NCBI GenBank assembly: GCA_021781455.1
Contig: JAJXWV010000038.1
Span: 1-49,645, forward strand
Length of the DNA: 49,645 nt
Direction of reading: 5' to 3'
From: Acidobacteriota bacterium
GTDB taxonomy: Bacteria > Acidobacteriota > Thermoanaerobaculia > Gp7-AA8
This document shows positions 3,476-22,134 of this stretch, in pieces. Every line of letters begins with the position of its first letter. Position 1 is the first letter of the stretch. The notes under the pieces were generated by a model, which saw only the letters and a program-made list of their open reading frames with translations, had not been told where the DNA came from and did no database searches. The position numbers were made by a program, and so were the translations under genes.

Positions 3476-3529
3476 CAGGCGAGCTGCAAGTACCAATGGA
3501 TGTTTCCTGAACGCTGCCGGAGCCAACCT

Positions 3530-3665: not shown

Positions 3666-3750
3666 AAGCTGGATGACAAGTCGTCAGGACCGTGGACCGC
3701 GCCCACCGAACCGGATCAGAATGCCGCGGCTGTTTCAGGAGAGGCACGCG

Positions 3751-4764: not shown

Positions 4765-4785
4765 GAGTGTCAGGGCGAAGCCGCG

Positions 4786-4968: not shown

Positions 4969-5009
4969 CTAACCAGTAATCGCGGCTTCAGCGTTTTCTT
5001 CACAGGCTC

Positions 5010-5215: not shown

Positions 5216-5226
5216 GACCTTCGCCC

Positions 5227-5545
5227 TCATTGAGCGACGCGGACGACGACCTTGCCGATGTTCCGCTTCTCCTCGAGGGCGCGATGCGCGGCGGCGATTT
5301 CTTCGAACGCGAATTCCTGCCTACGTCCACACCGCGTCCGGCCGTGGCCGCCGCAAGCTGCTCTTCCCATCGTTCGTCGTCGTAATCGAGCGCGATGGCA
5401 GCCCCGAGCGAGCGCACCGCGTCCTGCTTTCCCCGTCCGGCGGCGCCGATGACGCGCGCGCCGATCTTCGAGCCGATCTGCACCGCCGCGGTTCCCACGC
5501 CTCCCGCGGCCGACGTGACCAGACTTCTCGGTGTCTGGAGGCCGT
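5227..5545 (-). pseudogene. Quinone oxidoreductase / zinc-type alcohol dehydrogenase family, internally deleted
   Basis: The minus strand reads LVTSAAGGVGTAAVQIG, the Rossmann-fold NADPH-binding loop of MDR-family quinone oxidoreductases, followed by KIGARVIGAAGRGKQDAVR and a helix ending AATAGRGVDV. In another frame it then jumps straight to the family's C-terminus, FEEIAAAHRALEEKRNIGK, ending VVVRVAQ before a stop at 5227-5229. Well over 100 central residues and the whole N-terminal catalytic half are missing. The upstream side abuts the 3' end of the HEAT-repeat gene. This is a remnant and cannot encode a working enzyme. Confidence 0.75.
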
Positions 5546-5554
5546 CACGCCGCC

Positions 5555-6322
5555 CTACTCGCCGCCGAGGTCTTCGTCATCGAGCGCTTCGTTGAGCGTG
5601 AGGTCTTCCATCGCGTCCTCGGCCGCTTCGGCGATCTCTCGATCCTTCGACTGCGACAGCTCCTCGAGAACGCCGAACGAATCCTCGTCGACGTTTGGGA
5701 GAGCGCGGATTGCTTCGAGGCGAAGGTCACGCTCGGTCTTGTTCGATGTGGCGAGCTGGCGGATCGTCTTCGATGCCTTGTCCAGCCCCAGCTTCCCAGC
5801 GGAACGGACTGCCTCGGCGAGCTGAACGCCTTCCCCATGGGTAACGACCTCGAGCAGTTCCTTCTCGAATCCCGTCATCGCCCCCATCCCGAAAATCGCG
5901 GTGAGGCGCCACTCCTCGTCGGCCGAAGCGAAGAGCTTCCGGATCTCGTCGTGCTGCCACGGCTGCGGGTCGCGCACGAGCACCTCGAACGCCCGGCGCC
6001 GGACGACCTTCGGCTGCGATGCGTCGTCGTACATGGCGCGGAGGCGCTGGACCAGGGAATCGAAAGTCTCCTGCGACACCGGCGGCCCGAGCTCGGGACC
6101 CCATTCCAGGCCGTCGATGTAGTCGTCCGCGCATTCTTCGATCAGCGGCCCGAGGGCGACGATCGCATCGGCGCGGATCTCATCACTCTGCTTGCCGGCC
6201 GCGATGTCGACGATCGCACGCGCGAGCTCCTCGTCCATTTCCATGGCGACGTCTTCGTAGGCCGTCTCGCGGACCTCGGGATCAGGGTCGGTCAGGGTAG
6301 CGATGATTTCTTCGTGACTCAT
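5555..6322 (-). CDS. HEAT-repeat protein
   Basis: A 255-residue acidic protein made of helical repeats typical of HEAT/PBS-lyase-like scaffolds: EEIIATLTDPDPEVRETAYE, then KVVRRRAFEVLVRDPQ, EWRLTAIFGMGAMTGFEKE and a C-terminal repeat around RDLRLEAIRALPNVDEDSFG. It ends in a very acidic tail (NEALDDEDLGGE). The ATG at 6322 is preferred to an upstream one at 6421 because the extension looks like intergenic sequence. Such proteins usually mediate protein-protein contacts and no catalytic motif is visible. It is transcribed away from the large sensor kinase, so the two could share the 6.32-6.75 kb control region. Confidence 0.75.
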   Translation of the reverse strand: MSHEEIIATLTDPDPEVRETAYEDVAMEMDEELARAIVDIAAGKQSDEIRADAIVALGPLIEECADDYIDGLEWGPELGPPVSQETFDSLVQRLRAMYDDASQPKVVRRRAFEVLVRDPQPWQHDEIRKLFASADEEWRLTAIFGMGAMTGFEKELLEVVTHGEGVQLAEAVRSAGKLGLDKASKTIRQLATSNKTERDLRLEAIRALPNVDEDSFGVLEELSQSKDREIAEAAEDAMEDLTLNEALDDEDLGGE

Positions 6323-6748
6323 GCCTCCATTATCGCGTTCTGTCCCGAAGAAGTGTGCAATCAACCCGGCCGCGGAGACGATCGTGGCGTACTTGACGCC
6401 GAGGTTCGATTTCGGCATCACGTCACTTTTCCGCGTCTCCGCACGCGATCGCGGATACGCTGCCGAAGCACGCCGAGGCGGTCACCACGGGGCAGGTGGC
6501 CATCGATGTTCTACCGGGCCATCGACGGCTCTCCCGAAATCGCGATTGCTGCGCCAATTAGATCTCCCGGCGAGGGAGCGGACAGTGCTCTTCGCCCGCG
6601 AAGATTCGAGACGAGCCGTAAGTGCGTCTGTAAATCCGCTTTGGTGTCAGGCCGAGCCAATGGTTTCGTCATTCGTGTTTGAATTCGACTATCGGCGTTG
6701 ATTCACGGGTACGGTCGCGGTGGGCTAACGCGCCGAGAGTACGCACGC

Positions 6749-9700
6749 ATGTCCGCAATCGGTCGATTCAAACATTCAGATTCCAGCACGAGGCGAACGG
6801 CATTTCTCGTCGGCGCGACAGCGCTGATCGTTTTGGCGCTGATGTACGTCGTCTACGCTTTTCACAGGGAGCGCGAAGCCGACGCTCTGCGCTATGCGCA
6901 CTCCGAGCAGCTCGCCGTGGCGCGCGTCGTTTCGGAACAACTCGAATTGTGCTTCGCCGAGTGGCAGCTGACGGTTCATGAGATTGCGTCCGCCGCCGAC
7001 ACCGCGACGAGTTCTCGAGAAGTCGTTCGCAATGTGGTAGCCCAACCGTCGAGCGGGTTCAAGGGCGTTGCCGTTTATGACACGGCCGGCCGAGTCGCAG
7101 CGTCTGCGGGCGCACTGCCGGCGCTTCCTGGCAAGATTGGATCTTCTCACGAGCTGACGGCAGAACTTCTGAATGGGCATCCCATCGCTGCGGCTCCAGG
7201 AGAAAGCATCGTGCGGATCGCCCTTCCGTTCGCACACGGGACTGTCGTTGCCGATGCGTCGCCCGTCAGGCGAATCGCAGCCGCAGTGGGGCACGCAATC
7301 GGGCACAGACAGTGGCACGCCAGGGTGCTGGCCGGAGACGGAACGGTTCTCTACGACTCTGCTCGATCGGCAGCAGTCCTGAGCGAAATTCGCGCCGGCG
7401 ATGCGTCCTGCGGCTCCTGCCACCCGCCTACGACCCGGGCGGACGATCGAGCGACGCGGCCGGACCGGACGGCCGTCGTCGGCCGGAGCATTGGCGAGAT
7501 CTCAGCGTCAGCAACTGCGAGCTTCGGTGGCATCGTTCTGACGACAGTCATTGATTCACCCCGGTCCGCAGCCGTGCGCGATGTCGCCAAGGACATCGGA
7601 CTGACGCTGCTGCTGTTCGCAGCTCTTTGCCTCGCCTTGTCCGTCACATGGGTCACTACATACCAGGCGTATCGGCGGCGTATACGTGCCGAGGAGGCAG
7701 CGCGATCGTGGAAAGAGCGGCATGAAATGCAGCAGGCGCTGCTCGATGCAAGGGAGCACTATCGCGCGGTCTTCGAGAGCTCGCACGACGCGATCATCAT
7801 CACGGATGCCGGCGGGCAAGTGAAGTTCGCGAATCCGAAGGCGACCGAAGTCCTCAGGCAGACGGAAAACCTGTTCGCGAACTTCCCGCGCTCCGCACAC
7901 GAGGTGATCGAGACGGCAATTCGCATCGGTGCTGCGGGTGCAGTGGCGACGTTCGATGCAGTGCTTCAGACTCCCGCTGGTGAGCGCCTGCTCTCGTTCA
8001 ATGTCGTGCCCTACATGGAAGATGGGGCTGTTGCGGGAGTGATCAGCTCCGGCCGCGATCTGACGGAACTGAAGCGTGACGAGGGGCTCATCCGCGAGTC
8101 GGAGCGCCGGCTCACGACGATGCTGAACAATACCGACACGCTTGCGGCGCTCGGCGATATCGAAGGCACGATCACCTTTTGCAGCACCGCTCTGCTGCAG
8201 CTCCTGGGCGTGACGACGGAGCAGGCGCTTGGGAGAGCGTGGCTCGATTTCGTCGCGCCCGAAGATCGCGACGCCGTGCGCGGGTCGCTCATCGAAGAGT
8301 TGCCGAGCGGCAACTATGCGACCTATGCGGAATATTCGATCGTGACGCAAAGCGGTGAGCGGCGGCTCACACGCTGGGTACGCACCCAACTTCTCGACGA
8401 CGAGGGGCGCATCGTCGGCCTTGGGGCGGTTGGCGAGGATTTGACTGCTCGCCGTTTGTCCGAGGACCGCATCAGGAAGTTGAACGACTTCTACCAGCGC
8501 ATCCTCGAGAAAACGGTTGCCGGTGTACTGGTGACAGATCGTGCGGACAATGTCTCCTACGTGAACGCGAGCTTTACCCTGGGCACTGGGGTGATCCTCG
8601 ATCGCGTTGCGCCGGCTGCGGCAGCAGCGGGGCGTATCCACGACCTCGTTCCGCCTTTCGCGGTGTGGTACGACACGGCAAAGAGCGAGCTGCGGCCGGT
8701 CTTTTTCGAGGCGGCCGCGATCACGCGTCCCGACGGTTCGAGCCGTTACCACAGCGGCTGGATGGTCCCGCTCACCGCGGATGGCGCGTTCGACGGCATG
8801 ATCTGCACGACAGAAGACTTGACCGATCGAGTCGCCGCCGAGAAGGCGCTCGGATCGCTTCAGCGACGGCACGAAGACCTCGTCGACACCGTGCCGGGGA
8901 TGGTCTGGCGGGCGGATGCGCAGACCCTCGCTGCGGAATACATCAGCGCGTATGCCGTCCAGTTTTTCGGGTATCCCCTCGCCGCATGGCGTGAGCCGGA
9001 TTTCTGGACCGATCATATCCATCCCGACGATCGCGACCGAGTCGTCAACGACGTCCTTGCGGCGGTGACGGAGGGACGCGGCCGAGCCCTCGATTACCGG
9101 TTCCTGGCCGCGGACGGCCGTGCGGTGTGGGTACGCGATGCGTTTCGCGTCGTGATGGAAGACGGGCGCCCGACCGAGCTGCAGGGCGTGATCGTCGACA
9201 TCACCGAGCGGAAGGAGATCGAGAGCGCGCTCGCCGAAAGTGAGTCGCGGTTCCGGGCTCTTTTCGAGCAGTCGGCGATCGGGATCGCCGTGCAGTGGGC
9301 CGATCGCGAGAAGCTCGAAACGAATCTCGCCTTCCGCGAAATGTTCGGCTACTCGGGAGAGGATCTCAGCACGACTAACGCCGCGCGCACCGCCGGTTCA
9401 TCGGTTCGGAGGATCGTGAACGAGATCTTCGACACCCTCTGGATCGGACTCGAGACGTCGGTGCAGAAAGAAGCTGTCTTCCGTCGCCGGGGCGGGAAGC
9501 AGATCTGGTGTCGCATCACGGCCTCGGTGATTCGTGACGAGCTCGAAGAGCCACGCATGACTGTGGCGCTGTTCGAAGACTTCACGGAGAGAAAGGTCGC
9601 CGAAGAAGCGCTCGAACAGAGCCGCGAAAAGTTTCGCGATCTCGTCGAAATCACGACGGATTGGGTGTGGGAAGTCGATCCAAACGGCGTCTATACCTAT

Positions 9701-11080
9701 GCCGGACCGCGCGTTCGCGCCATCCTCGGGTACGAGCCGGAGGAGATCATTGGACGTACGCCTTTCGATTTCATGGCGCCTGACGAGGTCGAGCGTGTTC
9801 GCGCAATCTTCGCGGCGGCGATGGCGGAGCGGAAGGCGTTCGCACTGATGGAGAACGTGAACATCCATCGCAACGGAACGCGCGTCGTGCTGGAGACGAG
9901 CGGCATGCCCGTGTTCGACGCCAATGGTTCGTTTACTGGCTATCACGGCATCGACCGCGACGTGTCGGATCGCGAGGAGCACAAGCGCGCTCACCGCCGG
10001 CTGGCGGCGGCCATCGAACAGTCGACCGAGGTCGTCATCCTCACAAATCGCGACGGAAACATCGAGTATGTGAATCCGGCGTTCGAGAAGATCTCAGGCT
10101 ATTCGCGTGACGAGGTGGTCGGGTTGACGCCGCGGATTCTGAAGAGTGGCGTGCAGAGCGATGACTTCTACGCGTCGCTGTGGGCGCGGTTGCTCAGCGG
10201 AGGTTCCTGGAGCGGTCGATTTGTCAACCGGCGCAAGGATGGAACGACTTTCGAGGTCGAGGCGAGCATCTCACCGATTCTTTCGGATGATGGCCAGATC
10301 AGCGGGTTCATTGGTCTGCAGCGCGATATGACCGAGCACATCACGTTGCTCGAACGGCTCCATCGAGCCGAGGAGATGGATCGCGTGGGACGGCTGATCA
10401 GTGGCGTCGCTCACGAAGTGCGTAACCCGCTGAACGGGATCCAGGCAGCCTTGGCAGCTCTCGAGCTGGACGTCGCCTCAACCGATGAAAACCAGTCGCT
10501 GTTCCGGGCGATGCGATCACAGGTGACGCGGCTGTCCCAGCTGATGCGCGAGCTGCTCGAGTTCAGTAAGCCGATCGAGCCTTCGCGTATGGAGAGGTGC
10601 TCCGTGGATGCGCTCTGCAGCGAAGCGATTGCACTGTGGCGGTCCGGCCATCCCGATCAGCCGCAGGAGCGCGTGATCTTTGAGCCGCTTGGAACGACGC
10701 TGATGGTGGAAGTCGATCGCATGCGCCTGCACCAGGTCGTGATTAATCTCCTTGACAACGCTCACCAGCATTCACCGATCATCGAAGATGTCGTTCTACG
10801 CATCTCTCGCGACAACGGCTATTGCCGGATCGAGGTCGTCGATCGTGGCGCCGGCGTGAAGCCGGAGCACGTCTCACACGTATTCGATCCATTTTTTACG
10901 ACCCGCCGCGGAGGAACCGGTCTCGGATTGACGCTCGTCAAGAACATCGTCGAACAGCACGGCGGCCGTGTCATGCTCATAAACAACGATCCTGGTCCGG
11001 GTTGTAACGCCCAAATCATTCTGAAGGCCTCCGTGGCTGTTGAACAGCTTGAAGATGCAATCGAAACTGCTTCTCGTTGA
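6749..11080 (+). CDS. Multi-PAS membrane sensor histidine kinase with periplasmic CxxCH motif
   Basis: A 1443-residue sensor kinase. Membrane segment 1 is at about 17-38 and segment 2 at about 283-306, enclosing a periplasmic domain of about 240 residues. That domain contains CGSCH (Cys221, Cys224, His225), the covalent haem c attachment motif. The cytoplasmic part holds seven consecutive PAS-like domains of about 120 residues each (roughly 331-1200; for example ALFEQSAIGIAVQWADREK and AAIEQSTEVVILTNRDGN). A HisKA domain follows with phospho-accepting His1222 in GVAHEVRNPLNGI, then an ATPase domain with VVINLLDNAHQHS and GTGLGLTLVKNIVEQHGG. It overlaps the next gene, an NtrC-type regulator, by 26 bp, so the pair is almost certainly co-translated partners. 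Haem attachment is inferred from the motif alone. The ATG at 6749 is chosen because it directly precedes membrane segment 1. Confidence 0.92.
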   Translation: MSAIGRFKHSDSSTRRTAFLVGATALIVLALMYVVYAFHREREADALRYAHSEQLAVARVVSEQLELCFAEWQLTVHEIASAADTATSSREVVRNVVAQPSSGFKGVAVYDTAGRVAASAGALPALPGKIGSSHELTAELLNGHPIAAAPGESIVRIALPFAHGTVVADASPVRRIAAAVGHAIGHRQWHARVLAGDGTVLYDSARSAAVLSEIRAGDASCGSCHPPTTRADDRATRPDRTAVVGRSIGEISASATASFGGIVLTTVIDSPRSAAVRDVAKDIGLTLLLFAALCLALSVTWVTTYQAYRRRIRAEEAARSWKERHEMQQALLDAREHYRAVFESSHDAIIITDAGGQVKFANPKATEVLRQTENLFANFPRSAHEVIETAIRIGAAGAVATFDAVLQTPAGERLLSFNVVPYMEDGAVAGVISSGRDLTELKRDEGLIRESERRLTTMLNNTDTLAALGDIEGTITFCSTALLQLLGVTTEQALGRAWLDFVAPEDRDAVRGSLIEELPSGNYATYAEYSIVTQSGERRLTRWVRTQLLDDEGRIVGLGAVGEDLTARRLSEDRIRKLNDFYQRILEKTVAGVLVTDRADNVSYVNASFTLGTGVILDRVAPAAAAAGRIHDLVPPFAVWYDTAKSELRPVFFEAAAITRPDGSSRYHSGWMVPLTADGAFDGMICTTEDLTDRVAAEKALGSLQRRHEDLVDTVPGMVWRADAQTLAAEYISAYAVQFFGYPLAAWREPDFWTDHIHPDDRDRVVNDVLAAVTEGRGRALDYRFLAADGRAVWVRDAFRVVMEDGRPTELQGVIVDITERKEIESALAESESRFRALFEQSAIGIAVQWADREKLETNLAFREMFGYSGEDLSTTNAARTAGSSVRRIVNEIFDTLWIGLETSVQKEAVFRRRGGKQIWCRITASVIRDELEEPRMTVALFEDFTERKVAEEALEQSREKFRDLVEITTDWVWEVDPNGVYTYAGPRVRAILGYEPEEIIGRTPFDFMAPDEVERVRAIFAAAMAERKAFALMENVNIHRNGTRVVLETSGMPVFDANGSFTGYHGIDRDVSDREEHKRAHRRLAAAIEQSTEVVILTNRDGNIEYVNPAFEKISGYSRDEVVGLTPRILKSGVQSDDFYASLWARLLSGGSWSGRFVNRRKDGTTFEVEASISPILSDDGQISGFIGLQRDMTEHITLLERLHRAEEMDRVGRLISGVAHEVRNPLNGIQAALAALELDVASTDENQSLFRAMRSQVTRLSQLMRELLEFSKPIEPSRMERCSVDALCSEAIALWRSGHPDQPQERVIFEPLGTTLMVEVDRMRLHQVVINLLDNAHQHSPIIEDVVLRISRDNGYCRIEVVDRGAGVKPEHVSHVFDPFFTTRRGGTGLGLTLVKNIVEQHGGRVMLINNDPGPGCNAQIILKASVAVEQLEDAIETASR

Positions 11081-12365
11081 CGATGAATGGGTTTTCTCGT
11101 CCTCGACGGCGCGCTACCTGTCGCGGAAGGGATTTTTCGTTCGTGAGGCGGGCACCCTGGCCGCAGCACGGACGGCCGTGGCTGGGGATTCGTTCAATGC
11201 CGTTCTGCTCGATCTCGGTCTTCCGGATGGCAACGGCATCGAGTTTCTGGACGAGCTGCGCGCGGCCTACCCCGCGCTCGCCATCATTGTGATCACGGGT
11301 TCGGGCGATATCCCTGTTGCCGTCGAGGCAATGAAGCGGGGAGCCGACCATTTCCTCAGCAAGCCGATCGACCTGACGGAGCTGGAGCTCTTCCTCAATA
11401 AATCCCTCGAAGTTGGACAGCTGCGCCGTAAGCATGCGGCCCATCAGCGGCTGTCGAAGAGGAATGAGCCGTTCTTCGGAACGAGTGAAGCGGCACGACA
11501 CGCTCAGGAGCTGGCACTGCTCGCCGCCGAGAGCGACGCCGTGGTGCTGATCACCGGTGAGACCGGGACCGGCAAAGGAGTGATCGCCAACTGGATCCAT
11601 CACCGCAGCTACAGGCGCACGATGTCGTTTGTCGAAGTCAACTGCTCGATGTTGCGCGGCGAACTGCTGGCGAGCGAACTGTTCGGCCATGCGCGGGGCG
11701 CCTTCACGTCGGCGAGCGAGAATCGGAGCGGCCTGATCGACACGGCCGATGGCGGAACACTCTTTCTGGACGAAATCGGCGACATGGATGCGTCGATCCA
11801 GGTGCAATTCCTCAAAGTCATCGAGGAGAAACGGTTCCGCCGGCTTGGCGAGACGAGCGTCAGGCACAGCGACTTCCGACTGATCTGTGCGACCAACCAC
11901 GATCTCGCATCCGATGTCGCCCGGGGCGCTTTCCGCGCGGATCTGTTCTATCGGCTGAACGTCCTTCCGATTCACCTCCCGCCGCTGCGCGAGATACCCG
12001 ACGATTTCCGTTCGCTGGTTGCCTATCTGCTCGCAGGGTTCGGCACCACAGTCGAGCAGTTCGAGCGCGGGGCGATGGAAATACTGCAGGCTTACGAGTG
12101 GCCGGGAAATACGCGCGAGTTGAAGAACGTGCTCGAACGCGCACTGCTTCTCGCCAGGGGTCAGCCGATCGGCAGGAGCCATCTGCGAGGCATCGAGCAC
12201 GGCTCGCCGAGGCAGGACTCGGCGAACGGGCGATCAATCGCCGCGGATGTACTGGCTGTGCTTCAGCGCTGCGGAGGGGACAAGCGACTCGCGGCGCGAG
12301 AGCTTGGTATCTCGCGGGCGACGCTGTACCGGCGGTTGCAGTCGATCGAGGGCACGGAGCAGTAA
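11055..12365 (+). CDS. NtrC-family sigma-54-dependent response regulator
   Basis: A 436-residue regulator with three domains: a receiver (acid pocket Asp9/Asp10, phospho-acceptor Asp53 in LLDLGLPDGNG, Lys in FLSKPID), a sigma-54-activating AAA+ domain (Walker A GETGTGKG, Walker B GGTLFLDEIGDM, sensor region LFYRLNVLPIHLPPLR), and a C-terminal Fis-type helix-turn-helix (LAARELGISRATLYRRLQ). The sigma-54 contact loop reads GAFTSA instead of the usual GAFTGA; the essential Phe-Thr is kept. The ATG at 11055 lies inside the 3' end of the kinase gene. The likely targets are the palindromes and sigma-54 promoter just downstream, which would make this the activator of the chemosensory operon. Confidence 0.93.
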   Translation: MQSKLLLVDDEWVFSSSTARYLSRKGFFVREAGTLAAARTAVAGDSFNAVLLDLGLPDGNGIEFLDELRAAYPALAIIVITGSGDIPVAVEAMKRGADHFLSKPIDLTELELFLNKSLEVGQLRRKHAAHQRLSKRNEPFFGTSEAARHAQELALLAAESDAVVLITGETGTGKGVIANWIHHRSYRRTMSFVEVNCSMLRGELLASELFGHARGAFTSASENRSGLIDTADGGTLFLDEIGDMDASIQVQFLKVIEEKRFRRLGETSVRHSDFRLICATNHDLASDVARGAFRADLFYRLNVLPIHLPPLREIPDDFRSLVAYLLAGFGTTVEQFERGAMEILQAYEWPGNTRELKNVLERALLLARGQPIGRSHLRGIEHGSPRQDSANGRSIAADVLAVLQRCGGDKRLAARELGISRATLYRRLQSIEGTEQ

Positions 12366-12434
12366 ACAAACTGCAAACTGCTTTTCCCCGACGGCGACCA
12401 CGCGTCCACGAGAGGGGTTTTCGTGTTGCGCAAT

Positions 12435-12502
12435 TCTCACGTGAGACGGCGTGAGACGCGAAATTGTGGACTTTCTCACGATGCGTGAGACGCCGCATGA
12501 GA
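12435..12502. promoter_or_regulatory. Candidate activator-binding palindromes (upstream activating sequence)
   Basis: Two palindromes share the half-site TCTCACG. TCTCACGTGAGA at 12435-12446 is perfect. TCTCACG-ATG-CGTGAGA at 12474-12490 has 7-bp perfect arms. Extra half-sites GCGTGAGACG (12449) and CATGAGA (12496) lie between and after them. They sit about 85-140 bp before the sigma-54-like promoter and directly after the NtrC-type gene, the usual position for enhancer sites of this regulator class. Binding is inferred. Confidence 0.6.
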
Positions 12503-12574
12503 ATCGCAGTTCGCGATCCGGCCAGCAATCACATAAGTCACATAAAGCCAGAGACTTAGCTGCTGGCTCTTCCG

Positions 12575-12590
12575 TGGCAGCAAGGTTGCT
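12575..12590 (+). promoter_or_regulatory. Candidate sigma-54 promoter (-24/-12)
   Basis: TGGCAGCAAGGTTGCT matches the sigma-54 consensus TGGCAC-N5-TTGCW with one deviation in the -24 box. GG and GC are separated by exactly 10 bases. The start of transcription would fall near 12600, only a few bases before the ATG at 12607, so the leader would be very short and has no clear ribosome-binding site. It drives toward the receiver-EAL-Che genes. Confidence 0.6.
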
Positions 12591-12606
12591 CTACGGCGGC
12601 CACGAC

Positions 12607-13026
12607 ATGACGTCCGCGTCTCCACCCAATCACCTGCCGATCTCTCCTTCCGAGCCTTCGCGCGAGCGAATTCTTCTCGTCGATGACGACGAAGAAACCC
12701 TCACGATATTCACTGCTTTGATCCGCCGCCTGCAATGTCATGTCGACGCAGTGACCAGCATCGAGGCAGCCGAGAGGCTCCTCGATGCCGGTCGCTATGA
12801 CGTGGTGATCACCGATCTGCGCCTTACCGGCGTGCTGGGCGAGGAAGGGCTGGAAATCATGCAATACGTCAAGGAAAAGAACCCGACGACGCAGGTCATC
12901 CTCATCACCGGATTCGGCAATCCGCAGTTGATGACGCGCGCGTACCGGCTGGGCGCGGCCTGCTATTTCGAGAAGCCGGTCGATCCCGCTCGTCTGGTCG
13001 GAGCAATCCAGCAACTCAAGCCATGA
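12607..13026 (+). CDS. Single-domain response regulator (receiver)
   Basis: A 139-residue protein with an N-terminal extension of about 20 residues rich in Ser/Pro and then one complete receiver domain: acidic pocket Asp26-Asp28 in ILLVDDDEE, phospho-acceptor Asp70 in VVITDLRLTG, Thr/Ser switch in VILITGFG and Lys in CYFEKPVD. There is no output domain, so it probably works by protein contact, either with the EAL protein encoded next or as a second CheY-like target or phosphate sink of CheA. Its stop overlaps the next start (ATGA at 13023-13026), which implies translational coupling. It is the first gene after the sigma-54-like promoter. Confidence 0.85.
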   Translation: MTSASPPNHLPISPSEPSRERILLVDDDEETLTIFTALIRRLQCHVDAVTSIEAAERLLDAGRYDVVITDLRLTGVLGEEGLEIMQYVKEKNPTTQVILITGFGNPQLMTRAYRLGAACYFEKPVDPARLVGAIQQLKP

Positions 13027-13811
13027 AGAGCCAAACCGAGCAGAACGAGCTTGCCGATCTGGTCCGCCGTGGATTTCACTCCGTGGTGTTCCAGCCGATC
13101 CGTCGCCTCGGTGACGGGTCGGTCTACGGATTCGAAGCGCTGATGCGCGGACCGGAAGGGACCGTGCTGGAGAACCCGGCGCCGATCTTTCGCAGCGATG
13201 CCATCGACCGTACGCTCCTGCACGAAATCGATTCCGCATGCATTCTTTCGGCAGTCCGTCTGGGCCGGGTGCTCGAAGGCGTGCTGTTCATCAACGTGCA
13301 TGGCGAGACGCTTCTGCACCACGCCAGCCGGGGCGACGACATCATGCGCATGCTCCCGGTCGTCGATGTCGATCCGCAGCGTGTGGTACTCGAGATTTCG
13401 GAGACGACGGACAAGTCTCACGTTCACGCGATCAAGCGCGCTCTTCAGCCGTTGCGCGACCTCGGCATGCGGCTGGCGCTCGACGATGTCGGTGTCTTCA
13501 ACTCCTGGCTCCAGCACATGGTCACCCTGGAAGCCGAGTACATGAAAGTGGACCGGCAGTTCATCACACACATCGATAGCTCGCCTTCGAAAAAGCGCCT
13601 GTTGCGCGGCTTCGTCGCCTTCGCGCGGGAGACAGGCGCGGAAATCATCGTGGAAGGCGTGGAGTCCGAGGCCGAAAGCGCCGCCGTGGCGAAGTGTGGA
13701 GTCGATCTGGCGCAGGGGTACCTGCTCGGCCGACCCGCGCCTGCGCAAACGTGGGTGGACTGCTCGGCCGATGCCCCGGACCAGACGCGCGTCAGCGCGG
13801 TATTCGAGTGA
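13023..13811 (+). CDS. EAL-domain protein, probable cyclic-di-GMP phosphodiesterase
   Basis: A 262-residue stand-alone EAL domain with no sensor or membrane part. The signature Glu38-Ala-Leu lies in VYGFEALMRGP. Further metal- and ligand-binding positions are present: Asn in LFINVHGETL, Glu in VVLEISET, the Asp pair in LALDDVGVF (usually DDFG), Lys and Asp in YMKVDRQFI, Glu in IIVEGVES and the terminal QGYLLGRP. With these kept the protein is likely active in breaking down cyclic-di-GMP, although the DDFGTG loop is altered to DDVGVF and loop 6 should be checked. It is coupled to the receiver gene before it by a 4-bp overlap, so its activity may be set by that receiver. Confidence 0.87.
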   Translation: MKSQTEQNELADLVRRGFHSVVFQPIRRLGDGSVYGFEALMRGPEGTVLENPAPIFRSDAIDRTLLHEIDSACILSAVRLGRVLEGVLFINVHGETLLHHASRGDDIMRMLPVVDVDPQRVVLEISETTDKSHVHAIKRALQPLRDLGMRLALDDVGVFNSWLQHMVTLEAEYMKVDRQFITHIDSSPSKKRLLRGFVAFARETGAEIIVEGVESEAESAAVAKCGVDLAQGYLLGRPAPAQTWVDCSADAPDQTRVSAVFE

Positions 13812-13818
13812 GAACGAA

Positions 13819-14253
13819 ATGACAAGAGAGCCGCGAAAAATCCTGATCGTCGAGGACTCCGAGTTGCTTCACCGCATGTACGAAGTGGTCTTCCGCCTGC
13901 AACGAAAGAACGGGTGTCTGCTCCTGCACGCCCTCAACGGGCGCGAAGCCCTGCAGCAACTTTCCCAGCACCCCGACACCGACCTGATCCTGCTCGACAT
14001 CAACATGCCGGTGATGAGCGGTCTGGAGTTTCTGGCGCACTGCAAACGCGAGCAGGTCTTCCATGAGATTCCGGTCATCATCGTGAGCACGGAAGGAAAG
14101 CACGAAGACACGGTTCGCGCACTGCGTGGTGGCGCTCGCGGATACGTCACGAAACCTTTCAAGCCGCAGGATCTGCACACTCTGATCGAGCGCATCTTCG
14201 CCGCGTCAAAAGCGCAGCCGGGTGAACTGGTCAAGAGCGCGAGCACTGTCTGA
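13819..14253 (+). CDS. cheY: CheY-like response regulator
   Basis: A 144-residue single receiver domain. It has Glu12-Asp13 in ILIVEDSE, phospho-acceptor Asp60 in LILLDINMPVMSG, Ser in VIIVSTEG and Lys in YVTKPFKP. It starts 8 bp after the EAL gene and its stop overlaps the cheA start (TGATG at 14251-14255). Position directly before cheA makes it the prime phosphotransfer target. With no flagellar switch gene nearby, its output partner is unknown and may be the EAL protein or another regulator. Confidence 0.88.
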   Translation: MTREPRKILIVEDSELLHRMYEVVFRLQRKNGCLLLHALNGREALQQLSQHPDTDLILLDINMPVMSGLEFLAHCKREQVFHEIPVIIVSTEGKHEDTVRALRGGARGYVTKPFKPQDLHTLIERIFAASKAQPGELVKSASTV

Positions 14254-15827
14254 TGGTCAACGCACCGTACCTCGGTCTGATGGCCGACTTCTTCCTGGAG
14301 GCCAACGAGCGCTGTGACCGCCTCGAAGAATGCCTGCTCGCTGCTCTCGAACAGACCGGCGATGCGTGCAACGAGCTGCTGAATGCCGCCAAACGCGAGC
14401 TCCACACGCTCAAGGGCAATGCCGGCATGATGGGCTTTCGCGAGTTGCAGGAGGCTGCTCATCGACTCGAGGACCGCGTTGCTGCGGTTGATCGTGACGA
14501 CCCGTGCATCGAGAAACTTCTTCTGGACCTGGACGGCTTTCGGGCCATGGTGCGCGATGCCAATACTGACGAGTCCAAAGATGAATCTCTCTCCTCCGGT
14601 GTCTCCACCACCCCGGCACCACATGATGATGCGCTGCATCTCCGCAGCGTTCGGGTGCCATTCGTTGCTCTCGACGAGCTCGTCGATCTTCTTGCGGAGA
14701 TGGTCATCTTTCGCAATCGCGTCGACGATGCCCTGACCCGCAGCCACTCCGGAGCCGGGGCCTGGGACGACGTCCAGTCGGCTCATGAGGCGCTGGGCAA
14801 GACCCTGACATTCATTCAGGACCGCATCATGTCCATCCGGATGGTCCCGCTTCAGACGCTGTTCGGTCATCTGCGGAGGATCGTCCATGACGAAAGTCTG
14901 GCCTCGGGGAAGCGTGTCGTGTTCGAGGTCGTCGGCGGGGAAACGCCGATGGACAAGGCTCTTCTCGAATGCGCAAGCGAGGCTCTCGGTCACATCGTCC
15001 GGAACGCTGTGGTTCACGGCATCGAAACGCCGGATGGACGGGCGGCTGGCGGCAAACAAAGTGTAGGAACCGTAAGGCTGACCGCAGTTGCGCACGCCGA
15101 TGAAGTGGTCGTCGAGGTGGCCGATGACGGCGCGGGCATCGATCGCGCGTCGATCATTCGTGCGGCCGAAGCGCGCGGCATCGATCCCGACAGCGTCGAT
15201 GATCCTTACGAGCTGCTCTTCCGGGCCGGGTTTTCGACCCGGGTCGAGACGGACGTGAGTGCCGGCCGCGGGGTGGGTCTGTCTGCCGCGGTCGACGCCG
15301 TGCGCAGCCTGGGCGGGCACGTCTCGGTCGCTTCCAACGCGGGCATCGGAACTACGTTTCGGATGCGGCTGCCCTTGACGGTCTCCATCACGCGCGCGCT
15401 CCTGGTGCGTGTGGACGGCGAGGATTACGCCGTTCCTCTGGCTGCCATCAGCGAGAGCGTCATCTTCAGGAGCGGCGACCGGCACGTCATCAACCAATCG
15501 TCGGTTTTCGAATGGCGCGGTGCCGTGCTGCCGCTGCTCGATCTCGGCTGTGCGATGGCGACTGCCACCACTCCGCGCGACCACGGCTACATCGTGGTGA
15601 TCGAAGCGGAAAACAAACATCGCGGCCTGATGGTCGACGATCTTACCGGGATGCGCGAGATCGTGGTCAAGGGTCTCGGCGAAATCGGCGGCCTGCCGCG
15701 CGGCATCTCCGGGGCGACCATCCTTGGCGACGGCCGTGTCCTTCTCATTCTCGATGCCAGGTCGCTCGTTGCCATGACGCCGGCCAATGAAGCTCGCCTC
15801 GAACGGCGAGCGCCAGGAGGTAATTGA
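14253..15827 (+). CDS. cheA: Chemotaxis histidine kinase CheA
   Basis: A 524-residue CheA, shorter than the enterobacterial form because the CheY-binding P2 domain is missing. The P1 domain carries the phosphorylated His51 in ELHTLKGNAGMMGF. After a short linker comes the dimerisation domain with IMSIRMVPLQTLFGHL. The ATPase domain has the N-box LGHIVRNAVVHGIE, the G1 box VADDGAGID and the G2 region GRGVGLSAAVDAV. The CheW-like P5 domain begins about at residue 375. Loss of P2 is common in non-flagellar chemosensory systems. It overlaps cheY and cheW by one base each side, so all three should be made in step. Confidence 0.95.
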   Translation: MVNAPYLGLMADFFLEANERCDRLEECLLAALEQTGDACNELLNAAKRELHTLKGNAGMMGFRELQEAAHRLEDRVAAVDRDDPCIEKLLLDLDGFRAMVRDANTDESKDESLSSGVSTTPAPHDDALHLRSVRVPFVALDELVDLLAEMVIFRNRVDDALTRSHSGAGAWDDVQSAHEALGKTLTFIQDRIMSIRMVPLQTLFGHLRRIVHDESLASGKRVVFEVVGGETPMDKALLECASEALGHIVRNAVVHGIETPDGRAAGGKQSVGTVRLTAVAHADEVVVEVADDGAGIDRASIIRAAEARGIDPDSVDDPYELLFRAGFSTRVETDVSAGRGVGLSAAVDAVRSLGGHVSVASNAGIGTTFRMRLPLTVSITRALLVRVDGEDYAVPLAAISESVIFRSGDRHVINQSSVFEWRGAVLPLLDLGCAMATATTPRDHGYIVVIEAENKHRGLMVDDLTGMREIVVKGLGEIGGLPRGISGATILGDGRVLLILDARSLVAMTPANEARLERRAPGGN

Positions 15828-16453
15828 TGTCCGATGAACCTGCGGATCCGGGCACGGCGCTGTTGCCGCCGTCCGGTCTCGCCGAAGACATTCTCGGTTT
15901 CCGCGCCGATTCCACAGCGCCCGACCAGCTTTACACGTTTGCCGACTCCGTCAACGTCCATCAACAGGGGCTTGTCGAACGACCGAAGGCGATCGAGACG
16001 TGGGTGACGTTTTCGCTCATGGGTGAGACCTTCGCTTTACCGGTAACGCACGTCTACGAGATCCTCCGCGTGTCCGGCATCACCCGCGTTCCGCACGCGC
16101 CCGCGATGGTGCGGGGCGTGACGAACATGCGCGGGCGCGTGCTGCCGGTGATCGATCTGCGCGTGCGCCTGGGACTGAATGCGGCAGAGCCCTCTCAGCA
16201 GAGTCGCATTCTCGTGGTGACCTCCCGTGGCCGTTCGCTCGGACTACTCGTCGACGCCGTTCAGCAGGTCGAGCGGATCCAGCGCGATACGGTCCAACCT
16301 CCACCCGTCGACATCATGACGGCGCAATCGGACTACATCGTCGGCGTCTGCGATCTCGGAGCGCGGCTGGTCATTCTCCTCGACGTCGATCGCATCCTCA
16401 TTCTTCGTGAAATCGAGCGCGACGCTCTCCAGCGCGCGCCGCAAGGAGCGTAG
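15827..16453 (+). CDS. cheW: CheW coupling protein
   Basis: A 208-residue protein linking CheA to the chemoreceptor. The first ~55 residues are a low-conservation extension; the CheW fold follows, with [20 protein letters not shown], the receptor/kinase-binding turn [18 protein letters not shown] and the end [16 protein letters not shown]. The ATG at 15827 is supported by a perfect AGGAGG six bases upstream; an in-frame TTG one codon earlier is not preferred. It overlaps the cheA stop by one base and ends three bases before the receptor gene. Confidence 0.93.
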
Positions 16454-16455
16454 CC

Positions 16456-18342
16456 ATGAAGTGGTTTCTCAATCTCAAAGTCGGCGCAAAGCTCACCCTG
16501 GCGTTCCTGCTGATGGCGGCCGTCGTGTCCGGCATCGGAGTTCGCGGCATCCAGAACATGCAGAAGCTCAATCAACAACTCGACAGCGTGTTCCGGAACG
16601 AGCTCACACCGCTGGAGTCCCTCAGCAGTGCCGTGATCGCGTACGAGCATCATCGCCTCACCCGCATGGAAATGACTGCCGCAGTTGGCACGCCGAGATA
16701 CGAAGAATTCCTGGCGAAATCGGATGACGATGTGAGGATCATCGACGCGGCATTCGCGAATTACCGCAAAGCGACCCTCGCCGCAGAAGAAGAGAAGCTC
16801 GCCAGCGCTGTCGAAGCGGATCTCCTGGTTGAGAAAGCAAACCGCGTGCGCCTTCGGCAGATTCTGGAGAACAGCAGCATCACTCCAGATGAGCGACAGA
16901 AAGCAGGCTTCGCCTTTCTTTTCGACCCTGCCGTGATTGCCACCGGTCACCGGGTACGCGACAACTCCGACGAACTCCTTAGGGTTCACAAAAAAGACGC
17001 GGAGGCTGCGCAAAAGGATGGCGAGAGGCTGTACGCAGCTCAGCGCTCGATGTTCATGGGCGCGATCATCGCTGCGGTGATCCTTGCGCTTGGCATTGGT
17101 TTCTTCCTGGCTCGCATCATCACCGTGCCACTGCGCGCGTTTGGGGTGGCCATCGACAATGTGGCCCGCGGAAATCTCGTCACGCCGGAACTCGACACAG
17201 AACGCAAGGACGAGCTCGGCGACCTCGCACGCACGCTGCTGGCCAGCGTCGAGACGCAGCGCCACGTGATCGGCGAGATCAAGGAGTCGTCCTCGCTGGT
17301 CGCTTCTTCGGCCGATGAGATCTCCGCCTCTGCCGTGCAGATCACAAAGGGCGCAGAAAATCAGTCCTCTGCCAGCGATGAAACTTCTTCGACGATGGTG
17401 GAGATGGCCAGTCAGATCGACCAGGTCTCGCGCTCTGCTCAGAATCTGGCCACCAACGTGGACGAGACATCCTCATCCATCCAGGAGATGGGCGCTTCGA
17501 TCGAACAAGTGGCGAAGAATGCCGAAAACCTGTTGACGTCTGTCGAAGAGACCAGCACCACCATCGAGCAGATGGCGGCCTCGATCCGTTCGGTGGCGAA
17601 CAAAGTCAAGGTGGTCGATGAGGCTTCGAAGGAAGCGTCGACGATCGCCGAATCGGGTGCCGGCGAGCTCTCCACCGTCATCAACGGCATCGGCGCGAGC
17701 AGCAAAGACATCGGCAAGATCGTCAAGATCATCGAAGAGATCGCCGATCAGACGAACCTTCTCGCGCTCAATGCGGCCATCGAAGCGGCGCGCGCCGGCG
17801 ATGCCGGGAAAGGTTTCGCCGTCGTCGCCGAGGAAGTCAAGCGGCTGGCCGAGCGGTCGATGAACTCCACTCGCGAGATCTCCACATTCGTCGAGCGCGT
17901 GCAGAAGGACGTCGGCCAGGCGGTGGACCTCTCCGGCAACGTGCTCCGTTCCATTCGCGACTCGGTGGGAAAGAGCTCTTCGCTCGTCGGTGAGGTTTAC
18001 ACCGCCGCGCAGGAGCAGAGCAACGGAGCCGGTCAGATCCTCAAGACCGCCACCAACATGCAGAACGTCACGCGCCAGCTGGCCACTGCGGCGAAACAGC
18101 AGGCCATCGCCGCCCGCGAAATCATGTCGTCGGTGGAGACCATGAACCGCATGACCCAGCAGGTCGCCAACGCCACTTCGGAACAGAAGAATGGCGGCGA
18201 CATGGTCGTCAAAGCGGTCGAGCAGATCGCTCAGGTGGCCCAGCAGAACGTCGCCTCGACCGAGCAGCTCTCCAAGGCCACAGCCGGACTGGCCCGTGAG
18301 GCCGAGCGGATGCGCGGGCTCTCACAGCAGTTCGTCTTTTGA
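16456..18342 (+). CDS. Methyl-accepting chemoreceptor
   Basis: A 628-residue transmembrane receptor. Membrane segment 1 is at about residues 12-30 ([17 protein letters not shown]), followed by a helical periplasmic domain of about 165 residues that looks like a four-helix bundle. Segment 2 is at about 196-216 ([18 protein letters not shown]). A HAMP domain follows, then a long coiled-coil signalling domain with the conserved hairpin tip [20 protein letters not shown] continuing into [20 protein letters not shown]. There are many Glu-Glu/Gln pairs suitable for CheR/CheB modification. The C-terminus (RGLSQQFVF) lacks the NWETF-type tether for CheR. AAGGAG lies before the ATG. The ligand cannot be read from the sequence. 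Confidence 0.93.
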
Positions 18343-18356
18343 TCAGGTGATCAGCC

Positions 18357-20255
18357 ATGCTTGCGACAGTCCAATCGATGGAGGCCCGCGGTCGCGACGG
18401 AGATCTCAAGAAATTCGTCGATGCGCGGGATCTTCCCCCCGATCTCCAGCGGGAGACGCTGGAACAACTCTTTCGTAGCGCCAGCGGTGATCTTCGCCAG
18501 CGTGCCCTGCGCGCGGGCGCCATCGTACTGCCCGACGATGTTCTGATCTCGTATCTCCGCAACGGAACGGATGACATCGTCCGCAATTCCGGTTTGGAGA
18601 TGCTCAAGCTCCGCGGTCGGCGTGCGTTCTCGACGGCTGTGGCGCTGCTCGATGACAGCGACGGCGATGTCGTTCTGCAGGCCGTGCTGGTGCTCGACAG
18701 CTTGCGCGATCCGCGGGCGTGGCCTCACCTCAGACCCCTTCTCGAGCACGGTGATCCAAACGTGGTTCAGGCGACGATCATGGCCGCCGGTCACCTGGCC
18801 GGCGTCGCGGCGTTGCGCGACCTCGTGCCGTTCCTGTCCGCCGACCCATGGTTGCAGACGGCCGCCGCGCAGGCGCTCGGCGACCTCCGCTCGACCACTG
18901 CCGTACCGCATCTGGTTCCTTTGCTCTCCGATCCATTCATGGAGCAGTTCGCGGCCGAAGCGCTGGCACGGATCGGCGATGTGACTGCATTCCGGGCATT
19001 GGCCAAGCACTGGCTCGTAGCGGAACACGAAACGGAGCCGCGGTTGTATCTGGGGTTGCTCGCCGGAATGCTGGCGCAGTTCGAACGGCCGCCTCGTGAC
19101 GCGAAGCTTCTCACCGCCGTCGAGCGGTATCTCAGCTCGACCGATCAAGCCGCCGCGGCCGCCGCCGCCTGGTGTGTGCTGGCACTGGGACCATCAGCGG
19201 GCGACCCGATCGTGCTCGACCTCATCGCCGCGACAGTCGAAGAGCATCAATTCCCAGCCTCGATCACAGGCCGCAGCGACCTGGTCGCCAACCTCATCCG
19301 CCGCGATCCTCCCCTCCGCGACTGGGGTTGGGAGCTCCTGAACCGGTTTCCAGCCGCCCTGCCTCCGGAAGCGGTGGTACGCGCGCTCGGGGAATTTCCG
19401 CCGACTGGCGCGGGCACTGTAGGGGCGTACCTGGCGCATTCGAGCAGTGCGCTTCTCGTCGAGCCGTTACTGGCCGAATGGACAGGCCGGAGCGAAGAGC
19501 GCGAACAACTCACCGTTGCGGTGCGCCGCCATGCCCGCGCGATCGAGGAACGCGTGTCCACCTTGCCAATGACTGCCGCCGACCGCCTGGCGCTGCTCGA
19601 AGCGATCGGCGCTCCTCCTGCGGCGGTCAGCGCAGAGATCGTGCGGCTGGGGGAAGCGCAGCGATGGGAAGCCGTTGCGGCGATTCGGAGCCGGGCCGTG
19701 GTGCAGAGGCTGCCGTGGAGCGAGTGGATGGCGTCTGGGGATCGAGAAGCTGCCGGTCGCGCACTCGCCGACGCGCTGACACGGACGAATTGCCGCAAGT
19801 TGCTGCCACTCCTGCGTGCCGAGCTCGCCGCGCGTCCGCAACGCGAGCTCGTCGAGGTCGTGGGCGATCTTCGCGACGCCGACAGTGTGCCGATCCTGAC
19901 GGCACTTCTCCAGCACAGCGCTTCTCTGCTTCGCGCAGCGATCTTCGACAGTCTCGGCCGTATCGGCAGCACCAATGCGCGAACAGTCCTGCGTTCGTAC
20001 TGCGTTTCCGACGGTCCGGATGGCGGGCAGGCGTGTCGCGCTCTCGCCATGTGCGCGACGGAAAGCGACTGTGCCATCCTCCGCGCCGGTGCCGACTCTC
20101 CGGACCTCTCCGTGCGGCTTGCCGTGGTAGCACCGTTGATTTCCTTTGCGAACGAAGAAAATCTACGCGTCCTTCGCCGCTTGCTGTTCGATCCATCAAC
20201 CGCTGTCGCGCAGAAGGCGCAGTACTCACTCGATCTGGCGTGGAGCGCCGTTTGA
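18357..20255 (+). CDS. HEAT-repeat protein of the chemosensory operon
   Basis: A 632-residue protein composed almost entirely of HEAT/PBS-lyase-like helical repeats, for example DDIVRNSGLEMLKLRGRRA, GDVVLQAVLVLDSLRDPRA, PNVVQATIMAAGHLAG and WLQTAAAQALGDLRSTTAV in the first half and SLLRAAIFDSLGRIGSTNA near the end. It lacks a signal peptide and a catalytic motif, so it is probably a cytoplasmic scaffold. It sits between the receptor and cheR genes, 14 bp after the former and touching the latter, so it belongs to the operon. I recall HEAT-like proteins in some non-flagellar myxobacterial Che clusters, which makes a role in receptor or methyltransferase assembly plausible. Confidence 0.88.
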   Translation: MLATVQSMEARGRDGDLKKFVDARDLPPDLQRETLEQLFRSASGDLRQRALRAGAIVLPDDVLISYLRNGTDDIVRNSGLEMLKLRGRRAFSTAVALLDDSDGDVVLQAVLVLDSLRDPRAWPHLRPLLEHGDPNVVQATIMAAGHLAGVAALRDLVPFLSADPWLQTAAAQALGDLRSTTAVPHLVPLLSDPFMEQFAAEALARIGDVTAFRALAKHWLVAEHETEPRLYLGLLAGMLAQFERPPRDAKLLTAVERYLSSTDQAAAAAAAWCVLALGPSAGDPIVLDLIAATVEEHQFPASITGRSDLVANLIRRDPPLRDWGWELLNRFPAALPPEAVVRALGEFPPTGAGTVGAYLAHSSSALLVEPLLAEWTGRSEEREQLTVAVRRHARAIEERVSTLPMTAADRLALLEAIGAPPAAVSAEIVRLGEAQRWEAVAAIRSRAVVQRLPWSEWMASGDREAAGRALADALTRTNCRKLLPLLRAELAARPQRELVEVVGDLRDADSVPILTALLQHSASLLRAAIFDSLGRIGSTNARTVLRSYCVSDGPDGGQACRALAMCATESDCAILRAGADSPDLSVRLAVVAPLISFANEENLRVLRRLLFDPSTAVAQKAQYSLDLAWSAV

Positions 20256-20272
20256 CCTCTACTCAACTCTGT

Positions 20273-21094
20273 ATGTCCGATGAGGAGCTGGCGCTGCTCA
20301 ATGATCTCCTCTCGTCGGAGCTTGGAATCATCTTTGCGGAATCGAAGCGCGAGATTCTCGAGTCACGGCTGAGGCCGCGACTGGCCGCGCTCCGGCTGCG
20401 CAGTTTTCGCGACTATTACCTGCAGCTCCAGTATGCGAATGGCGACGGGGCGTCCGAGCGGCGGGAGCTGGCCCGCGCCGTCACAAACAACGAAACCTAT
20501 TTCTTTCGCGAGTCGTACCAGTTCGAGGCGTTGTTCGAGCAGGCCATCGGAGGCATCAAGGACCACTCCGCACAGCCGGGCGTCATTCGGATGATCAGCG
20601 CCGGCTGTTCCTCCGGCGAGGAGCCATACTCGCTGAACATTTTCGCGCGCGAGAATGCCTTCAGAGCCTTCGGCTGGAGCGTGGAGATCGACGCCTTTGA
20701 CGTCAGTGACGCACGCGTGCGTGCGGCATGCGCAGGGTCGTATACCGAGACTTCGCTCCGAGGAGTTTCCCCCGAACAGGTGCAGCGCTACTTCCACAGC
20801 GGAGACGGCCGATATCACCTGAAGCCGATGTATCGTGCCGGCGTTCGCATCCGCCTGGGGAACATTCTCGACAGAGCCTCTTATGGCCTGCCGGCCATGG
20901 CCGACGTCATCTTCTGCCGGAACGTGCTGATCTACTTTTCCGAGACCTCGCTGCGCCGTGCCATCGCCAATTTTGCGGAAGCCCTTCGACCCGGAGGTCT
21001 GTTGTTTCTCGGCCACTCCGAATCCATCATCGGACTCTGTCCTGACCTCGAGCCGGTGCGCTTAGGCAGCTGCATCGCCTATCGGCGCGTGTGA
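20273..21094 (+). CDS. cheR: Chemoreceptor methyltransferase CheR
   Basis: A 273-residue S-adenosylmethionine-dependent methyltransferase that methylates receptor Glu residues. The N-terminal helical domain (LLSSELGIIFAESKREILE to LARAVTNNETYFFRESYQF) carries the conserved Asn-Asn-Glu-Thr-Phe-Phe-Arg signature. The SAM-binding loop is MISAGCSSGEEPYSLNI, and DVIFCRNVLIYFSET and LLFLGHSESI follow as in CheR. The ATG at 20273 is used; a TTG at 20252 overlapping the previous stop is an alternative and would add seven residues. The 3' end overlaps the cheB GTG start by four bases. There is no tetratricopeptide extension. Confidence 0.93.
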   Translation: MSDEELALLNDLLSSELGIIFAESKREILESRLRPRLAALRLRSFRDYYLQLQYANGDGASERRELARAVTNNETYFFRESYQFEALFEQAIGGIKDHSAQPGVIRMISAGCSSGEEPYSLNIFARENAFRAFGWSVEIDAFDVSDARVRAACAGSYTETSLRGVSPEQVQRYFHSGDGRYHLKPMYRAGVRIRLGNILDRASYGLPAMADVIFCRNVLIYFSETSLRRAIANFAEALRPGGLLFLGHSESIIGLCPDLEPVRLGSCIAYRRV

Positions 21095-22134
21095 GGGATG
21101 TGAAGACTCGCTCCTCCATCCGCCTCGCAGTGGTCGACGACTCGGTCTTCGTTCGGAAGGCGATCTGCCGTCTTTTTCAGGGCGACGAGCGCTTCACAGT
21201 GGTCGGAGCGGCGTCCTGTGGCGAGGAGTTGCTGGAGCATCTCGAAGCGTGGAATCCGACAGCCGTCACGCTCGATCTTTCCATGCCGGGCATGGGCGGC
21301 CTGGCCACCCTCGACGAGCTCCTGCGACGGCGACGGCTACCCGTCATCATCCTTTCGGCGCACACGAGCCAGGAAGCGCCGCTCACCATCGAGGCGTTGA
21401 GCCGCGGTGCCGTGGACTTCGTCGATAAGCAGCAGTTTTCGCTCGTTGATTTCGACGCTCTCCGCTCCGTTCTAACAGAGAAGTTGCTCACGATTGCAGG
21501 AACCCGGCGCTCGGCTGAACCGCCGCTGCTCGTGCCTGTTGTGCCGTCTCCCATGCCGGCAACCGGCAGTCACGACATCCTTCTCATTGGAGCCTCGACG
21601 GGCGGCCCGCCGGCGATCGAACAGGTTCTGCGGGACCTCGGGACTCCGTCTTTTCCGATCGCAATCGTGCAGCACATGCCGCCGGGATTCACGGCCGCAT
21701 TCGCGGATCGTCTCAACGCTCATTTGCCGATGGACGTGTGCGAGGCCTCGCACGGAGCGCGGTTCGTCCCCGGTGTCGCATACATCGCCCCCGCCGGAAT
21801 GCACCTCAAGCTGAAGAAAGACGGTGAGGAAATGTTCACGACGTTGAGCCGCTATCCCGATTCCACCACCCATTGCCCCTCGGTCAACGTGTTGTTCGAA
21901 TCAGCAGAGGCCTTCGGCGAGCGCTGCGTGGCGGTGCTCCTGACGGGTATGGGCGACGACGGCGCCAACGGTCTGCTGAAACTTGCAAGCGCCGGCGCGC
22001 TGACGGTCGTCCAGGACGAGGCGACGTCAGTGGTCTACGGCATGCCCCGAGCCGCCGTCGCCCTCAACGCCGCCCGCGAGCAGTTGCCGCTGCCCAGCAT
22101 CGGAAAACGCGTCATCGAGCTGCTACGGTTCTGA
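21091..22134 (+). CDS. cheB: Chemoreceptor methylesterase CheB
   Basis: A 347-residue protein with a receiver domain followed by the methylesterase. The receiver has Asp16-Asp17 in LAVVDDSVF and phospho-acceptor Asp62 in VTLDLSMPGMGG. The esterase triad is visible as Ser169 in LIGASTGGP, His195 in AIVQHMPPGF and Asp290 in LTGMGDDGANG. The start is GTG at 21091, overlapping the cheR stop. It removes methyl groups added by CheR, so the operon can adapt its signal. CheD, CheC and CheZ are absent from the window. Confidence 0.94.
   Translation: MRDVKTRSSIRLAVVDDSVFVRKAICRLFQGDERFTVVGAASCGEELLEHLEAWNPTAVTLDLSMPGMGGLATLDELLRRRRLPVIILSAHTSQEAPLTIEALSRGAVDFVDKQQFSLVDFDALRSVLTEKLLTIAGTRRSAEPPLLVPVVPSPMPATGSHDILLIGASTGGPPAIEQVLRDLGTPSFPIAIVQHMPPGFTAAFADRLNAHLPMDVCEASHGARFVPGVAYIAPAGMHLKLKKDGEEMFTTLSRYPDSTTHCPSVNVLFESAEAFGERCVAVLLTGMGDDGANGLLKLASAGALTVVQDEATSVVYGMPRAAVALNAAREQLPLPSIGKRVIELLRF

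Follow-up and report, generated by a model that had tools for sequence, protein, structure and literature searches.

A sensor kinase and an NtrC-type activator are encoded directly ahead of a complete chemosensory operon in the 49,645-nucleotide stretch of acidobacterial DNA that we analyzed as a whole (the window). Judged from its sequence, it is likely that this dedicated two-component pair licenses the production of a non-flagellar chemosensory array via a sigma-54 promoter.

The kinase/activator pair and the chemosensory operon

The genes and DNA elements of the system are as follows:

6698..11080, + strand: multi-PAS membrane histidine kinase (HK), 1460 aa (Pfam PAS families, HisKA, HATPase_c)
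11055..12365, + strand: NtrC-type sigma-54 activator with REC, Sigma54_activat (AAA+) and Fis-type HTH_8 domains (Pfam)
12435..12456, no strand: enhancer-like site 1, TCTCACGTGAGACGGCGTGAGA, a 12-bp palindrome plus an extra half-site, with a 22-bp outer inverted repeat
12474..12490, no strand: enhancer-like site 2, TCTCACGATGCGTGAGA, a 17-bp inverted repeat that is unique in the genome
12575..12590, + strand: predicted -24/-12 (sigma-54) promoter element, TGGCAGCAAGGTTGCT; consensus match with counterparts in 12 other loci
12607..13026, + strand: stand-alone receiver (REC), first gene of the operon (PF00072); ATG 18 nt past the -12 C
13023..13811, + strand: EAL-domain protein, putative c-di-GMP phosphodiesterase (PF00563)
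13819..14253, + strand: CheY-like receiver (PF00072)
14253..15827, + strand: CheA, 524 aa, with Hpt, H-kinase_dim, HATPase and CheW-like domains (Pfam)
15824..16453, + strand: CheW (PF01584)
16456..18342, + strand: chemoreceptor with 4HB sensor, HAMP and MCPsignal domains (Pfam)
18357..20255, + strand: HEAT-repeat protein, HEAT_2 (PF13646)
20273..21094, + strand: CheR methyltransferase (PF01739), corrected start ATG 20273
21091..22134, + strand: CheB methylesterase with receiver (PF01339 and PF00072)

Pfam assignments bear out, gene by gene, the order given in the first-pass annotation, in which an HK/NtrC pair is followed by receiver, EAL, CheY, CheA, CheW, receptor, HEAT, CheR and CheB genes. 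The activator gene starts at ATG 11055 (a corrected start) and overlaps the HK gene by 26 nt; for HK itself, an alternative ATG is present near position 6749. REC, Sigma54_activat and Fis-type HTH domains, the combination that defines the NtrC-type class, are all found by Pfam in the single activator protein, which scores below the listed NCBIfam equivalog cut-offs used for comparison with NtrBC/AtoSC/ZraSR-type systems. In a phylogenetic tree it clusters with the activators of two other loci, L223 and L009 (support values of 99/93 and 100/100). An alignment gives its recognition helix as GISRATLYRR. The canonical activator loop GAFTGA, through which such proteins contact sigma-54, reads GAFTSA in the window and in L223, GSFTSA in L009 and GAFTNA in another clade; we found no literature on the GAFTSA variant. 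The dCache_1 match of HK is weak (Pfam). The N-terminal periplasmic part of the kinase carries a CGSCH motif, a possible c-type haem site, and no CxxCH motif was seen when the sequence of the L223 kinase region was looked through; the CGSCH sequence is a hint of haem-based sensing that is limited to this genome.

CheA, CheW, a receptor, CheR, CheB and a CheY-like receiver are all present (Pfam), so that the Che set is complete; a P2 domain of CheA was not matched in Pfam. The hairpin of the chemoreceptor is long, with about 180 residues from its tip to the C-terminus. The previously described tight row of genes is evident from their spacing: neighbors among the nine che-type genes either share up to 4 nt or are separated by no more than 17 nt, and REC-EAL-CheY-CheA-CheW-MCP-HEAT-CheR-CheB are therefore very probably transcribed as one message. 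A porin-like gene follows CheB at position 22177, with no recognizable terminator between the two.

A predicted sigma-54 promoter and enhancer-like repeats in the intergenic region

A gap of 241 bp (12366-12606) separates the stop of the activator gene (12365) from the first ATG of the operon (12607). The -24/-12 match reported ahead of the operon was recovered here as TGGCAGCAAGGTTGCT at 12575-12590; it agrees with the consensus at 10 of 12 positions and possesses a GG-N10-GC core with TGGCAC/TTGC flanks. Among matches in the window with at most two mismatches, it is the only one that retains both the TGG and the TTGC block. The chance of such a score in a gap of that size is p = 0.004 (random segments of the same window), and it should be noted that all p-values given here derive from random segments or shuffles. 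Genome-wide, TGGCAN6TTGCW has 11 matches versus 17 for its reversed control; since it is no commoner than the control, the motif alone is weak evidence.

Transcription from sigma-54 promoters begins about 12 nt past the -12 base. For the che operon, a transcript start is predicted at about 12600, which would leave a leader of approximately 6 nt before ATG 12607. The first codon is positioned 15-18 nt past the -12 base in the window and in the related loci L139, L141 and L143, for which leaders of 3-6 nt are predicted (in L139, L141 and several others, 3-4 nt separate the predicted start from the start codon); a ribosome-binding site would not fit into leaders of this length. Leaders this short, predicted for the window and a number of its relatives, suggest that sigma-54 drives nearly leaderless messages here. 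In L223 and L229, the leader is longer and includes a plausible ribosome-binding site. No sigma-70-type promoter was scored in the gap at 12366-12606, where one serving the che operon is conceivable, and the gap lacks a strong terminator.

TCTCACG palindromes had been placed 85-140 bp before the promoter, and their positions agree with this placement. Exact TCTCACG half-sites occur five times in the gap, at 12435(+), 12440(-), 12450(-), 12474(+) and 12484(-), with palindrome centers 93 and approximately 130-135 bp upstream of the -24 element (93 bp for site 2, and 129.5 bp for the outer repeat of site 1). Half of the ten TCTCACG copies of the whole window are thus contained in 56 bp of this gap, and the arrangement TCTCACGN0-5CGTGAGA has a single occurrence in the 4.88-Mb genome, in the che-operon gap. 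A palindrome with 7-bp arms, taken singly, turned up in 38 of 200 shuffles and so is not rare; the evidence for these putative sites is their clustering and conservation, not any single palindrome. A generic search for clustered 7-mers was rejected as proof, as a cluster of five also appeared in 23 of 30 simulated sequences; in the G+C-rich DNA of the window, 7-mer clusters are frequent whatever their sequence.

Genomic context

The genome (4.88 Mb in 90 contigs) has a single copy of the sigma-54 gene rpoN (PF04552 at G000:C10, E 6.5e-67). PF00771, the family of the flagellar export apparatus protein FlhA, was unmatched in this genome, which is rated 100% complete, while the control search was positive in E. 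coli, B. subtilis, Caulobacter and Thermotoga. The absence of FlhA from a genome rated complete argues against swimming chemotaxis, and the chemosensory array is, on these sequence grounds, probably non-flagellar. Both the single rpoN gene and the missing FlhA fit the earlier proposal of sigma-54 control over a non-flagellar array.

The genome contains a second che cluster (L224, G000:C52:60000-79900) with CheA, CheW, CheR, a HEAT-repeat protein, receivers and an AAA ATPase; its assignment as a flagellar cluster was rejected, with FlhA absent and ten ORFs scanned without a flagellar gene. A further sigma-54 site, TGGCAGTGGCGTTGCT, is present in L225 (oriented position 4399; G000:C38:57587-57602), about 220 bp past a second NtrC-type gene and ahead of an ORF for a small membrane protein. 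At position 11468 of L014 (Geothrix paludis), TGGCACCTCCGTTGCT is located directly 3' of another NtrC-type gene and before an ATG, a layout like that of the window with another target. The window also carries a tandem array of five copies of the heptamer CTCAGGA (42668-42703), with a similar array near 9294 in L225 and related ones elsewhere in the genome, and perfect tandem repeats at 414-502 (42 bp, 2.1 copies) and 46918-46972 (20 bp, 2.8 copies).

Related loci in the Acidobacteriota

Related loci were collected through activator and CheA searches at the levels of family, order and phylum, and those with a readable upstream region were used. Only one relative with the full gene order was found, L223 (G137), from another family of the phylum; its genes read HK-NtrC-REC-EAL-CheY-CheA-CheW-MCP-MCP-HEAT-CheR-CheB, and its NtrC and CheA proteins are 57% and 54% identical to those of the window. 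Searches in the order and class of this genome gave only L223 and L229 (G119), a short contig with REC-REC-EAL-CheY-CheA-CheW, as window-type operons. A sister type, L139 to L143, is found in the window's own GTDB family; identity to the window is 31-41% for most of its proteins. L212 and L213, which are further away, resemble L140; Geothrix-type loci (L214 to L218) begin with CheY, and L219 is a related che cluster. L144 (G008:C20, oriented 1750-7592) consists of HK-NtrC-REC-EAL with a TGGCACCACCATTGCG promoter and no che genes detected, and possibly represents an ancestral or reduced module. L009 was rejected as an instance of the same operon, as no che genes were detected around it.

The first-pass annotation had named conservation in relatives that share the gene order as a check on its proposal, and both the promoter and the palindromes are kept in L223, the sole full-order relative. 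Beyond the window and L223, eleven further loci retain a -24/-12 match ahead of their first gene, most of them with other palindromes at a similar distance. In the thirteen loci including the window, the first gene is preceded by a GG-N10-GC element that agrees with the consensus at 8-11 of 12 positions; L215 likewise has such an element, and no -24/-12 site was visible upstream of the L219 che cluster. Of the 14 loci scored or read, 13 have the element ahead of their first gene. Nine representative loci combined give a Fisher p of 3e-9 (5e-8 without the window). The sites of L140, L142 and L143 are individually weak (p 0.10-0.20); they are supported by their near-constant position, 15-16 nt before the start codon, nearly as in L139, L141 and L144. 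The arrangement proposed by the first-pass annotation therefore stands, whereas its description as unusual does not, since it is rather recurrent in the Acidobacteriota.

The upstream repeats follow a different pattern. L223 has a recognition helix identical to that of the window (GISRATLYRR), and its gap carries TTCTCACCATGAGAA, two additional TGAGA half-sites, and TGGCACACGTGTTGCT. TCTCA, a motif defined from the window, is present four times in this gap versus 0.15 expected (p 0.006), a count that provides a cleaner test because the motif had been noticed in the window before testing; it was absent (count of zero) from the 12 other gaps. Conversely, TTCGAA and GGTCAAT are present in other lineages and absent from the window. 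L139, L140 and L142 possess TTCGAA repeats instead, combined with the helix GI/VTRNTLYYK where the activator is adjacent, and L143 has degenerate TTCGAA-type repeats. L141 carries ATTTCTAAAATTAGAAAT, and Geothrix-type loci carry CGGTCAATCATTGACCG or a near copy, in both cases some 100 bp upstream of -24. Most further loci have different palindromes at a similar distance, with a different helix where the activator was identified, and across loci most palindrome centers are found 90-135 bp upstream of -24. L009, the third member of the activator clade (100/100), has ATTCTCA...TGAGAAT half-sites, seen by eye, beside a -24/-12 site that precedes another gene.

As read from these sequences, the promoter is kept while activator helix and enhancer appear to diverge together; half-site changes that track the helix are the pattern predicted by true activator-enhancer pairing, and such natural helix/enhancer swaps offer a ready-made test of activator specificity. 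The activator orthologues of G009 (L145, G009:C161) and G007 (L146, G007:C102) are encoded on a contig other than that of the che operon. The che operons of G007 and G009 nevertheless keep the promoter and TTCGAA-type repeats, and they are predicted to be controlled in trans.

Proposed mechanism and alternative explanations

We suggest that the membrane kinase (6698-11080) would phosphorylate its overlapping-gene partner, the activator (11055-12365), which would bind the TCTCACG inverted repeats at 12435-12490 and, through DNA looping and ATP hydrolysis, open the sigma-54 RNA-polymerase complex at 12575-12590. The nine genes from REC to CheB would then be transcribed as one message that starts about 6 nt before the first ATG. 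Kinase-to-activator phosphorylation, repeat binding and transcript structure are what we infer from gene and site layout. The earlier statement that the two-component system decides when the array is built holds up for promoter control, given the conserved sites, while the deciding step is our inference. The EAL protein and the stand-alone receivers suggest that the output of the array is possibly c-di-GMP or surface behavior. An envisioned extension, in which the pair turns on the array, CheA adjusts activator phosphorylation, and the array thus governs its own copy number as part of an old phylum-wide design with activator and enhancer co-diverging under a constant sigma-54 promoter, is in our view unlikely.

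The same gene neighborhood might reflect an activator that is mainly an output of the array, with CheA (together with the kinase) setting the phosphorylation of an NtrC-type protein whose targets are elsewhere, like CrdA with Che3/CrdS. The link of a kinase/NtrC pair to a non-flagellar che system, here as in M. xanthus, speaks for this; yet the genome has a single copy of the exact palindrome, directly ahead of the che operon, and L223, L139, L140 and L141 likewise have a promoter and an enhancer between their activator and operon, which makes such a role quite improbable. The palindromes might also be bound by another regulator, a repressor or an activator, with the adjacent NtrC acting elsewhere. 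The separate contigs of operon and activator orthologue in G007 and G009 favor this idea, since adjacency is therefore not obligatory, but the half-sites track the helix of the neighboring NtrC (TCTCA with GISRATLYRR, TTCGAA with GI/VTRNTLYYK) and most centers lie at the distance from -24 usual for enhancers (90-135 bp); we consider it very unlikely.

Finally, the -24/-12 and palindrome matches could be due to chance, with a housekeeping promoter, or read-through from HK-NtrC, driving transcription of the operon. Although the genome-wide motif count does not exceed that of the reversed control, and no strong terminator would halt read-through in the gap, the placement of the element before the first gene in 13 of 14 loci and the joint conservation of half-sites and helix in L223 render this highly improbable. 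Licensing of array production by the adjacent pair is the reading that we prefer.

Comparison with known systems

All parts of the window system are of known kinds. NtrBC/AtoSC/ZraSR-type systems likewise combine a kinase with a REC-AAA+-Fis activator and inverted repeats upstream of a -24/-12 promoter; the window differs in that the target is a chemosensory operon. In Vibrio and Pseudomonas, the kinase/NtrC-type pairs FlrBC and FleSR, together with sigma-54, control motility and chemotaxis genes. FlrBC and FleSR belong to a flagellar hierarchy, whereas the genome of the window lacks FlhA and its pair appears to be reserved for a self-contained che operon.

The portion of the Desulfovibrio vulgaris sigma-54 regulome study considered here places two chemotaxis operons among the sigma-54-dependent operons, and lists chemotaxis among the functions of those sigma-54 promoters for which no activator site was predicted; unlike in the window, a dedicated adjacent pair is not described in that portion (PMC4641369). 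In a mainly open-access literature, we found no direct precedent for sigma-54 control of non-flagellar che operons, and a recurrent dedicated sigma-54 pair over a non-flagellar array across the Acidobacteriota seems unreported, as far as the open literature shows. How the building of non-flagellar chemosensory arrays is controlled is little known, and the predicted on-switch makes this control testable. The half-sites and promoter positions of this switch are named, related lineages provide controls, and the phylum is widespread and has seen few genetic studies.

The nearest association is that of Che3, CrdS and CrdA in Myxococcus xanthus, which likewise joins a che system to a pair of kinase and NtrC-type sigma-54 activator, and in which CheA3 and CrdS jointly set the level of CrdA~P (PMC3510030). 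CrdA is described there as the target of both Che3 and CrdS; in the window, enhancer and promoter directly precede the che operon, and the activator is therefore placed to control production of the array.
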